NCBI GenBank assembly: GCA_913778495.1
Contig: CAJYVD010000027.1
Span: forward strand, 35,397 to 99,396
Source: an uncultured Pantoea sp.
GTDB taxonomy: Bacteria > Pseudomonadota > Gammaproteobacteria > Enterobacterales > Enterobacteriaceae
Length of the DNA stretch: 64,000 nt
Reading direction: 5' to 3'
Part shown: positions 60,437-64,000 of the stretch, in pieces
How the letters are laid out: every line of letters begins with the position of its first letter
Position numbering within the stretch: position 1 is the stretch's first letter
Notes under the pieces: generated by a model
What the model was told of the DNA's origin: nothing
The model's database searches: none
What the model saw: the letters and a program-made list of their open reading frames with translations, nothing else
Program-made: the position numbers and the translations under genes

Positions 60437-60817
60437 TCAGGTTACGTCATGCGCCTCAGCCCGATCGACAATGCGGTGAACGTTGCTTTCCAGCCAATCT
60501 GCCAGCCCAATGACCTGCCCTGCTACCTCAGCGCCCAACGGCGTCAGGCGATATTCGACGTGCGGCGGCACCACGTCATAGGCAATGCGCGCAACGAACC
60601 CGTCCTCCTCCATATAGCGCAGCGTTTGTGCCAGCATTCTTTCGCTGACGCCGCCAATTTTCCGGCGCAGCGTACTGAACCGCAGCGTTTCTTCCCGCAG
60701 AGCCAAAAACACCAGTACGCTCCAGCGGCTGGTGATGCGCTTCAGCACCTCGCGCGAGGGGCAGTTCACGTTTAACAGTTCGCCGCGCATAAATTTTTCA
60801 CTCAATTTTTCAGACAC
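60437..60817 (-). CDS. ytfH: HxlR-family regulator (YtfH/QorR type)
   Basis: 126 residues from a GTG at 60817 with AAGGA 9 bases upstream. HxlR winged helix with NCPSREVLKRITSRWSVLVF, RFSTLRRKIGGVSERMLAQTL and VPPHVEYRLTPLG; the single cysteine in NCPSR matches the redox-sensing cysteine of quinone-responsive HxlR proteins. It is divergent from qorB as in E. coli ytfH/ytfG, so it probably represses qorB and responds to quinones or reactive electrophiles. Confidence 0.9.
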   Translation of the reverse strand: MSEKLSEKFMRGELLNVNCPSREVLKRITSRWSVLVFLALREETLRFSTLRRKIGGVSERMLAQTLRYMEEDGFVARIAYDVVPPHVEYRLTPLGAEVAGQVIGLADWLESNVHRIVDRAEAHDVT

Positions 60818-60917: not shown

Positions 60918-61769
60918 ATGATTGCGATTACCGGCGCCACCGGCCAACTGGGCCGCTTAGTTATTGCCGAGCTGTTAAAGAAAATTCCCGCTAGCGCGCT
61001 GATTGCCGCAGTGCGTTCACCCGAAAAAGCGGCCGATCTCGCCGCGCTTGGCGTGACGGTGCGCGCGGCTGACTACAACCAGCCAGCGACGCTGGCGCAG
61101 GCGTTTCACGGCGTGGAGAAGCTGCTGCTGATCTCCTCCAGCGAAGTCGGCCAGCGCGAAGCGCAACACCGCGCCATTATCGACGCGGCCAAATCAGCAG
61201 GCGTGCAGTTCATCGCCTACACCAGCTTGCTGCACGCGGATACCTCCCCGCTGAGTTTGGCCACAGAGCATCTGGCTACCGAAGCCCTGCTGCGCGCATC
61301 GGGCGTGCCCTTTGCCCTGCTGCGTAACGGCTGGTACACCGAAAACTACGCGGCCAGTATTCCGCCTGCGCTGGCGCACAAAGCCTTCCTGGGGGCGGCG
61401 GGTGAAGGGCGTATCGCCTCAGCGGCGCGTGTTGACTACGCGGCCGCTGCCGCAGCCGTTATCGCTGGCGATGATCAGGCCGGTAAGATCTACGAACTGG
61501 CCGGGGACGAGAGCTACTCCCTGGCCGAATTCAGCGCCGAAATCGCCCGTCAATCGGGCCAGCAGGTTGAGTACGTCAATCTGCCCGCCGCCGAGTTTGA
61601 AGCCGCACTTAAGGGCGCGGGCTTGCCTGATCCCGTGGCTGCGCTGCTGGCCGATTCCGATGCGGGAGCCGCACAGGGCGGGCTGTTTGACGACAGCCGC
61701 ACCTTAAGCCGTTTAATTGGACGCCCTACCACACCGTATGCCGCCGTTATTCGCGACACGCTGGCGTAG
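60918..61769 (+). CDS. qorB: NAD(P)H:quinone oxidoreductase QorB
   Basis: 283 residues (E. coli QorB 286). Atypical short-chain dehydrogenase/NmrA fold with MIAITGATGQLGRLVIAELL at the N-terminus. FIAYTSLLHADTSPL and LRNGWYTENYA follow. It reduces quinones with NADPH. AAAGGAGTCCACC precedes the ATG. It is divergent from its probable regulator. Confidence 0.93.
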   Translation: MIAITGATGQLGRLVIAELLKKIPASALIAAVRSPEKAADLAALGVTVRAADYNQPATLAQAFHGVEKLLLISSSEVGQREAQHRAIIDAAKSAGVQFIAYTSLLHADTSPLSLATEHLATEALLRASGVPFALLRNGWYTENYAASIPPALAHKAFLGAAGEGRIASAARVDYAAAAAAVIAGDDQAGKIYELAGDESYSLAEFSAEIARQSGQQVEYVNLPAAEFEAALKGAGLPDPVAALLADSDAGAAQGGLFDDSRTLSRLIGRPTTPYAAVIRDTLA

Positions 61770-62079
61770 TCATCTTCACAGGCCGACGCGCGTCGGCCTG
61801 CTGCTTTGCCATGAATTGATCAAAATTTTTTCGCCGTCATCCGCCCTTTCGCGGCGCATTTTCATTTACAGAAAATTCTGTCTCATTATTTAAAACGAAC
61901 ATTTCAGCTACCACTTTCAATTCCTGAAATATAGTCCGTTGTTATCACTGAAAATTCGCTGAAAACCGCGATCAATCGACAAGATTTATTACGTTCATAG
62001 ATATTTCGCATTGTTGTCTGATGGGGTGAGAGTTCTATAATTTGTCTTTTGAGCAACCAGGCAATTTCAGGAGGCCGCT
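61770..62079. other. Intergenic region qorB-treF
   Basis: 310 bases, AT-rich from 61830 onward. A GGCCGACGCGCGTCGGCC inverted repeat (61780-61797) just after qorB may act as its terminator stem, though no T run follows directly. The treF promoter and ribosome-binding site are at the right end. Confidence 0.45.
62014..62041 (+). promoter_or_regulatory. Probable treF promoter
   Basis: A perfect -10 TATAAT (62036-62041) with a TTGTCT -35-like hexamer 16 bases upstream. The C before the -10 (CTATAAT) also suits RpoS, which controls treF in E. coli. Expected 5' leader about 30 bases. Confidence 0.6.
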
Positions 62080-63738
62080 ATTAATACTATCCGCCAGCAA
62101 CGCCAAGCTTTCGATGAACACGAAGCCCATGCTGATCTGGGGTATCAATACGATCCTCACGAATTGATCCGCGATGACATGCAGGATTCGGAGCCAGAGC
62201 CAGAGCTGATTGAAGGCCTGCCGGCGCCGGACGCGCTGACCCCTGCCGATCGGTATCTTGAACTGTTCGAACATGTGCAGATGGCGCGCATTTTTGAAGA
62301 TAGCAAGACCTTTCCGGATTGCGCACCGAAATACGATCCGCTGGATATATTAATGCGCTACCGTCGTCGGAAACGTTCCGCTGATTTCGATCTCGGACAA
62401 TTCGTACACGAGCATTTTTATTTACCCGTGGTGAATGAAAGTTTTTATGTTTCCGATCCGGATAAAACCATCACGGAACATATTGATGACCTGTGGCCGG
62501 TATTAACCAAAATGCCACAGCAGCATTTACCGCATTCATCGCTGCTGCCGTTGCCGAAGCCTTACGTCGTACCCGGTGGACGCTTTGGCGAGACCTATTA
62601 TTGGGACTCGTATTTCAGCATGCTGGGTCTGGCGGATGCCGGACGCGACGATCTGCTACGTCATATGGCGGACAACTTCGCCTGGCTGATTGATAACTAC
62701 GGGCATGTGCCCAACGGCAACCGTACTTACTACCTCAGCCGCTCGCAGCCACCGGTGTTTGCCCTGATGGTTGAGCTGTTCGAGGAAGACGGCATTCGCG
62801 GCGCGAAGCGCTATCTCGACCAGCTGATGAAAGAGTACCAGTTCTGGATGGACGGCGCGGGTGAGCTGATGCCGCATCAGGCTTATCGCCACGTCGTGCG
62901 CATGCCCGACGGCTCCCTGCTTAACCGCTATTGGGACGACCGCGATACGCCGCGCGATGAATCCTGGATGGAAGATGTGGAAACCGCCAGCAAATCAAGC
63001 CGCCCGGCCAACGAGGTCTATCGCGACCTGCGCGCGGGTGCGGCGTCGGGCTGGGACTACTCTTCGCGCTGGCTGCGCGATCCGCAGCGTTTGGCGAGTA
63101 TCCGTACCACCCAGTTTATTCCGGTGGATCTGAACGCGTTTCTCTACAAGCTGGAGCTGATGATCTCAACGCTGTCGCACGCCAAAGGCGAAGAGCTTAC
63201 GGCGCTGGCCTGGCAGAAGAAAGCCGATGCGCGCCAGCAGGCAATAAACCGCTATTTGTGGGACGACACTGCGGGCGTGTATCGCGATTACAACTGGCGT
63301 GATGAGCGTTTCGGTGCTTTCACCGCCGCTGCCGTCGTGCCGCTTTTCCTGGGACTTGCCAGTGCGGAGCAGGCACACTTGCAAGCCATCGCGCTGCGCC
63401 AGCTGCTGCTCACGCAAGGAGGACTGTTTACCTCCATGGTCGACAGCGGCGAGCAGTGGGATAAGCCCAACGGCTGGGCACCGCTGCAGTGGATGGCCGT
63501 CGTAGGCCTTAATCACTACGGTGAAGAGACGCTGGCGAAAGAGATCGCCCTTAACTGGCTTACCACCGTGAAGAATTTCTACAAAATTCATCACAAGCTG
63601 GTTGAAAAATACGACATTAGCGGCGACCGCGCGCGCCCAGGCGGCGGCGGCGAATACCCGCTGCAGGACGGTTTCGGCTGGACAAACGGCGTTACTCGCC
63701 GCCTGCTGACGATGTATGGGCACCTGTTAGTCGATTAA
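62080..63738 (+). CDS. treF: Cytoplasmic trehalase, predicted AUU start
   Basis: 552 residues if translation starts at ATT 62080-62082. AGGAGG (62069-62074) ends 5 bases before this codon. A TGA in frame lies just upstream, and there is no ATG, GTG or TTG until TTG at 62164, which lacks a ribosome-binding site and would remove 28 conserved residues. From the ATT, the first 46 residues align without gaps to E. coli TreF (e.g. DPHEL with [14 protein letters not shown] with EPEPEMIEG). Family GH37 signatures are complete: [28 protein letters not shown] and [17 protein letters not shown]. It hydrolyses trehalose to two glucoses in the cytoplasm after osmotic stress. Confidence 0.9.
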
Positions 63739-63760
63739 GGATAGGGACCAGGGCGCTGGT

Positions 63761-63904
63761 GAGGCGCTGCGGGAGTCCGGCCCGCACAGCCGGTGGGGCG
63801 TGAGCGGGGGTCCGGCCCGCTCAACTGCCGGTAATTGTGAGCGGTGTCCGGCCGCTCAGCCGGCATGACCCTGAGCGGGTTCCGCCCGCTAACCGCACGG
63901 CAGT
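63761..63904. repeat. Array of four imperfect hairpin repeats after treF
   Basis: Four units of about 35 bases begin near 63761, 63800, 63837 and 63872. Each contains a GC-rich hairpin of the form (GA)GCGGG-TCCGG-CCCGC(TC) and ends with a CCGG- or GCACGG-containing spacer. They resemble a local amplified palindromic element, not a known REP sequence that I can name. Confidence 0.6.
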
Positions 63905-63930
63905 TTCAGCCGCACCGCTGCGGCGTACGG

Positions 63931-63958
63931 GCAAAGGGCCGATGGCGCGGCCCTTTGC
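63931..63958. terminator. Strong hairpin downstream of treF
   Basis: Perfect 10-bp arms GCAAAGGGCC and GGCCCTTTGC around an 8-base loop. There is no T run on the plus strand, so it may be a terminator for a gene beyond the window or a repeat-associated stem. Confidence 0.5.
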
Positions 63959-64000
63959 AATCCGCGCCCTGCGCCAGCCTGCGCTGTTCCCTCACTCCGC

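Follow-up and report, generated by a model that had tools for sequence, protein, structure and literature searches.

To our knowledge, few bacterial genes use AUU or AUC as a start codon on purpose. In E. coli, infC starts with AUU after a Shine-Dalgarno (SD) sequence and encodes initiation factor IF3, which yields a closed feedback loop of IF3 autoregulation, while the AUU start of pcnB keeps its enzyme, poly(A) polymerase, scarce. In Streptomyces, sigR has a start that is repressed by IF3; of 34 species, 32 read GTC there and 2 read GTT (PMC5472188). In Staphylococcus aureus, another report gives AUU as the start of cvfC1 and AUA as that of ccpN and citZ (PMC13009471). Here, a comparison of related genomes suggests that treF, encoding cytoplasmic alpha,alpha-trehalase, joins infC, pcnB and sigR as a gene with a conserved non-AUG start, and that AUU/AUC is probably ancestral for TreF. 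The gene studied lies in a 64,000-nucleotide stretch of DNA from an uncultured Pantoea sp., hereafter the window.

Some of the properties that characterize infC and pcnB were also found in treF: AUU/AUC is the only plausible start, it stands behind an SD at normal spacing, and the non-AUG start is conserved among relatives. In the genome that contains the window both infC and pcnB read ATT at the starts known from E. coli, the latter being placed by the N-terminus of the protein, and the ribosomes of this organism therefore presumably use AUU. In contrast to infC, treF would be a target outside the feedback loop, and its product is a sugar hydrolase whereas that of pcnB is an RNA-modifying enzyme. 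The sigR gene resembles treF in having a genus-wide non-canonical start behind AGGAGG, in being stress-linked, and in that the third base drifts but never to a canonical codon; it differs in the use of GTC, in being actinobacterial and in encoding a regulator rather than an enzyme, and its IF3 effect was shown by experiment (PMC5472188). The S. aureus genes likewise combine a strong SD with a conserved non-canonical start and are partly metabolic, but they belong to a Firmicute, use AUA in two of three cases and were shown by ribosome profiling and reporters (PMC13009471). E. coli treF is an orthologue in the same register with an in-frame ATC 4 nt after GGAGG; unlike Pantoea treF, it has an ATG two codons past this ATC, and the annotated 549-residue CDS starts at that ATG. 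A literature search, mostly without subscription papers, found no title or abstract on the treF start. Novel in the treF case are that the gene encodes an enterobacterial enzyme of sugar metabolism, that the start extends over four genera and that AUG seems to have come later.

The treF gene occupies positions 62080..63738 of the plus strand, with an open frame from ATT at 62080 to TAA at 63736-63738, and encodes a GH37 protein of 552 aa. The protein scores 1018.4 bits over its full length against the NCBIfam TreF model NF009773 (cut-off 512) and also matches Pfam Trehalase (PF01204). It passes the TreA subfamily model NF009774 as well (630 vs 560), far below its TreF score, and fails the TreA equivalog NF009775 (653 vs 941). 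Residues 9-548 of the protein counted from ATT correspond to positions 9-548 of the 549 in the TreF model, so counting from ATT gives the numbering of the TreF family, and the gap-free register claimed in the original prediction is borne out.

The original prediction also described an ATT five bases after a perfect AGGAGG, and this is what the window contains: AGGAGG at 62069..62074, the spacer CCGCT, and ATT at 62080..62082, all on the plus strand. Its statement that ATG, GTG and TTG are missing from the N-terminal region likewise agrees with the window, in which no such codon occurs in frame between the upstream TGA and TTG at 62164..62166 (codon 29, plus strand); the first in-frame ATG is codon 34 (62179..62181, plus strand). 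The in-frame stop bounding treF upstream, a TGA, was misplaced: it was said to lie directly in front of ATT but is found at 62050..62052 of the plus strand with nine codons (27 nt) in between. A promoter-like TTGTCT-16 nt-TATAAT on the plus strand at 62014..62041 (-10 at 62036-62041), identified by consensus match only, agrees with the consensus at 10/12 positions, and two such sites occur in the stretch vs 0.6 in shuffles. The TATAAT would place the transcription start near 62050, at about 62048-62051, giving a leader of some 30 nt. Folding of the leader in the window is weaker than that of most shuffles (z 1.88 for 62049-62120 and 2.15 for 62049-62110), and no fold-based control is therefore proposed.

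The explanation that we regard as very probable is that AUU 62080 is an SD-placed, conserved and probably ancestral start, whose predicted low, IF3-repressed output may spare trehalose. The strong AGGAGG, carried on a short leader and separated from AUU 62080 by the customary 5 nt, would place the ribosome at this codon, where initiator tRNA would pair imperfectly and IF3 would reject most of the complexes; TreF synthesis would be low and would fall as IF3 per ribosome rises. With little trehalase in the cytoplasm, trehalose synthesized under stress would not be broken down as quickly as it forms, and this may be the purpose of the weak start. By analogy with the AUU and other non-AUG starts of infC, pcnB and sigR, IF3 would repress TreF synthesis, the output varying inversely with IF3 per ribosome, and such repression may have a role in low trehalase. 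In the original prediction trehalase synthesis was called IF3-limited; IF3-repressed fits better because IF3 acts against non-AUG starts. Repression of non-AUG starts by IF3 is given for E. coli infC and shown for sigR in the sigR study (PMC5472188). A review describes TreF activity as insufficient to stop trehalose from being synthesized at high osmolarity (PMC10969515), and low activity fits a need for little enzyme.

It may also be that AUU is used as a plain weak start, lowering output without physiological regulation by IF3. A start that only sets a low level is about as likely as one that senses something, and we give it slightly less than an even chance. Expression of pcnB is described as reduced by AUU (PMC1780047), and in the SigR study repression by IF3 was found, whereas a response to oxidative stress had so far not been (PMC5472188). 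The E. coli-type treF genes seem to be weakened in another way, by SD spacings of 9-11 nt, as if low output mattered. The argument against this is indirect, in that non-AUG starts are generally IF3-sensitive and at least a passive sensitivity is expected for treF. Should IF3-repressed initiation at AUU 62080 be true, the supply of IF3 would be linked to trehalose turnover through a metabolic, stress-linked gene in several genera. The natural series of AUU, AUC and later-gained AUG lets one test why genes keep poor start codons, and gene finders restricted to ATG, GTG and TTG would be expected to misplace the treF start in these genera.

Conservation of the start codon was assessed in 61 Pantoea genomes with AGGAGGCYGYYATHAAYAC (AGGAGG-N5-ATH-AAY), a pattern that permits ATC and ATA as well. 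It matched in 58 of them with ATT in every case; a 59th genome (locus L138) has ATT behind TGGAGG, and in the other two (G040 and G051) no full-length treF match was found, only partial matches resembling the TreA paralogue. The 72 loci that were read first, 30 from Pantoea genomes including that of the window and 42 from named organisms, gave ATT in 71 and ATC in one, from Tatumella morbirosei. Comparison of relatives, as suggested in the original prediction, reduced 90 loci to 56 distinct ones, with ATT in 55, ATC in the single Tatumella locus and ATG in none; AGGAGG at spacing 5 precedes the codon in 55 of these 56, L138 being the exception. The observation of an AUU start is thereby confirmed at the level of DNA, and its reading as the treF start is supported.

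The codon alignment comprised 54 distinct genes, omitting L074, which is from another genus, and L078, whose frame ends at 443 aa. Eight of its columns always encode isoleucine, and codon 1 alone is invariant among them (ATT in 54/54), the other seven all mixing ATT, ATC and ATA. Among the 345 columns in which an amino acid with synonymous codons is invariant, only 8 are invariant at the codon level, and ATG, a single base away from ATT, is absent at codon 1 throughout. Judged by this pattern of substitution, codon 1 itself is under selection. The motif alone is no proof, as AGGAGG-N4-8-ATTAA occurs at two places in the genome of the window and the reversed control at five; it goes beyond chance because it is kept as ATT in 58/61 genomes while the seven other isoleucine codons vary. 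The second place in that genome (L156) was considered separately, and the surrounding ORFs give no sign of a start there.

A start further downstream, at TTG 62164 or ATG 62179 and preceded by an untranslated leader, was named in part by the original prediction and is very unlikely. Both codons are canonical and in frame and could be picked by finders restricted to ATG, GTG and TTG, and the codon-34 ATG is found in 50/54 genes. It is, however, replaced by GCA in three of the remaining four genes and by GTG in one, and the first ATG in these four comes only at codons 60-64. TTG at codon 29 is present in only 3/56 distinct loci (L001, L009/L038 and Tatumella L074), and no SD was seen by eye before TTG 62164 or ATG 62179 in the window. 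Furthermore, agreement with the TreF model extends from position 9 over the residues preceding both codons, and 63, 60 or 69 nt separate codon 1 and the conserved Tyr24 in 54/54 genes, differences that are multiples of three. Upstream, the distance from TATAAT to AGGAGG is 26, 27, 28 or 29 nt and thus drifts by single bases (52 of 54 leaders; two lack TATAATT). The two modes of length change together suggest that the reading frame matters from about ATT. Codons 2-22 evolve fast and are moderately constrained in the 54-gene alignment, and coding constraint near the start is therefore modest.

Still less probable, and in our view barely credible, is a canonical start upstream or in another frame that reaches treF by frameshifting or TGA readthrough. 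Some species do have an in-frame upstream TTG or GTG or an out-of-frame ATG in the leader (e.g. L031), but which of these candidate codons is present varies with the species, and many lie across the -10 box. The frame is closed by a stop 9 to 14 codons upstream in 41/56 distinct loci, and inspection by eye revealed no conserved slippery site. Of the 56 distinct loci, 36 lack ATG, GTG and TTG altogether over the interval from the upstream stop to the end of codon 32, and the remaining 20 have at least one canonical codon in places that vary. A leader ORF coupled translationally to treF was also considered, since ATTAAT was seen by eye to hold an out-of-frame TAA, and was dropped because Tatumella has ATCAAT, ATCACT or ATTACT without such a TAA. 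A sequencing or assembly error hiding a true ATG, regarded as the main alternative in the original prediction and favoured by the rarity of AUU starts and nothing else, is refuted and has a negligible probability because independent assemblies of many related species have ATT, in 58/58 pattern matches among the 61 genomes and in 41 of the 42 loci from named organisms, the last reading ATC.

The AUU start of treF also has counterparts beyond Pantoea. In Tatumella (coded g99, in which the leader of L132 is the same as that of T. morbirosei L074) a treF match was found in 5/6 genomes, with ATC in four and ATT in one, five bases after GGAGG, and none of the five has AUG at codon 3. One of them has ATG at codon 11 (L134) and another TTG ten codons upstream (L135). 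In both genomes of genus g32, ATC or ATT at spacing 5 adjoins another ATT/ATC and there is no canonical start. Three Tatumella loci (L083, L134 and L135) similarly have a further ATT just before the spacing-5 codon; in these and in g32 either of the two adjacent codons may be the start. Genus g120 has GGAGG-N5-ATC-ACT-TTY in 2/2 loci, one without a canonical start within 120 nt and the other (L219) with ATG at codon 9. An in-frame ATC/ATT exactly 5 nt after GGAGG is thus found in 9/9 loci of Tatumella, g32 and g120. By comparison, the putative AUU/AUC start is shown to be kept in Pantoea, Tatumella, g32 and g120 without the E. coli-type AUG two codons later.

The base preceding GGAGG is A in 62/63 AUG-less genes vs 9/104 others. 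The SD duplexes average -12.0 kcal/mol in the nine AUG-less genes outside Pantoea, -10.3 in the 54 of Pantoea type and -9.8 in the 104 others; the gain in SD strength is evident for the nine and slight for the Pantoea type. The treF leaders of Tatumella and genus g153 (L132, L083, L135 and L128) contain GTCTATACTTA, which resembles a stationary-phase (RpoS) -10 region, and Pantoea treF leaders have CTATAATTT at about the same place.

The E. coli-type genes differ in the position of their start relative to the SD. In 88 loci from 31 genera, ATG follows GGAGG by 11 (74 loci), 10 (12) or 9 (2) bases; this count omits L129, L222, L166, L169, L216 and L217 and the genera g99, g32, g120, g153, g36, g115, g116 and g25, which lack AUG or have leaders that are weak or of another kind. 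An SD was not found for L129, L216, L217 and L222. The codon two before ATG is ATC in 29 and ATT in 17 of the 88 (together 46, from 19 genera), the rest being CTC (13), GTC (11) and others (18). ATT/ATC stands one codon before ATG in 26 loci, three before in two, four or five before in none and six before in two. As a control, three 50-kb stretches of E. coli DNA provided 129 CDS, not counting treF and two listed pseudogenes; 74 have an SD match of at least 4 bases, and in the 43 with at least 5 bases the median spacing is 5 and a single one reaches 10. The position of AUU/AUC is thus normally spaced and that of the E. coli-type AUG is not. Since many of the 88 loci have other codons in place of AUU/AUC, these codons are not needed once AUG is present. 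In L098, L099 and L109 (g116, g115 and g36) there is a weak GAGG, an in-frame TAG and an ATG about 10 nt away; the weak SD and the TAG mean that AUG must be the start there despite the long spacing.

The relationship between the two types of start was followed on two trees, for which 130 rows had been thinned by genus to 86 and 60, respectively; the second had five TreA rows added and was rooted on an outgroup of six TreA rows. The AUG-less lineages fall outside the AUG clade on both (support for the AUG clade: SH-aLRT 99% on the first, 100/99 on the TreA-rooted second). On the TreF trees g120 branches first and g32 next, with support of 91/83 for the place of g32 and, on the second tree only, of 94/95 for a group of Pantoea and Tatumella. 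A further AUG, 9-11 nt after the SD, is seen in g153, the sister genus of Tatumella (L128, L218 and L221), and represents an apparent second gain; by parsimony AUG was gained twice, two changes sufficing on either tree. For the rows of the first tree, a topology that unites every AUG-less row in a single clade is not rejected (p-AU 0.164), and the TreA branch is long, with 1.06 changes per column on each side. Because of the long outgroup branch, the partial support of the forks and this p-AU value, ancestry of the codon is less sure than its conservation. An ancestral AUU/AUC start, with AUG gained later in the E. coli-type genes, is supported by the trees but dependent on the root. Among 295 genomes drawn across the order, the 12 matches at E 1e-170 or better all belong to the family of the window.

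One may speculate that AUU/AUC was the original TreF start family-wide, that the SD still marks its position, and that ribosomes in species with E. coli-type genes may partly start there, but this extension is doubtful. If such partial initiation were true, there would be two forms of TreF and an IF3-sensitive share of trehalase across the family, E. coli included.

A GC-rich dispersed repeat lies right after the treF stop, at 63744-64000. A search for repeats within the stretch itself found none; elsewhere in the genome 46 further places match this repeat with 70-98% identity, many of them at contig ends, and it probably breaks the assembly. Upstream of treF, translations judged by eye resemble an HxlR-type regulator (60437-60817, minus strand) and an NAD(P)H-binding/quinone-reductase protein (60918-61769).
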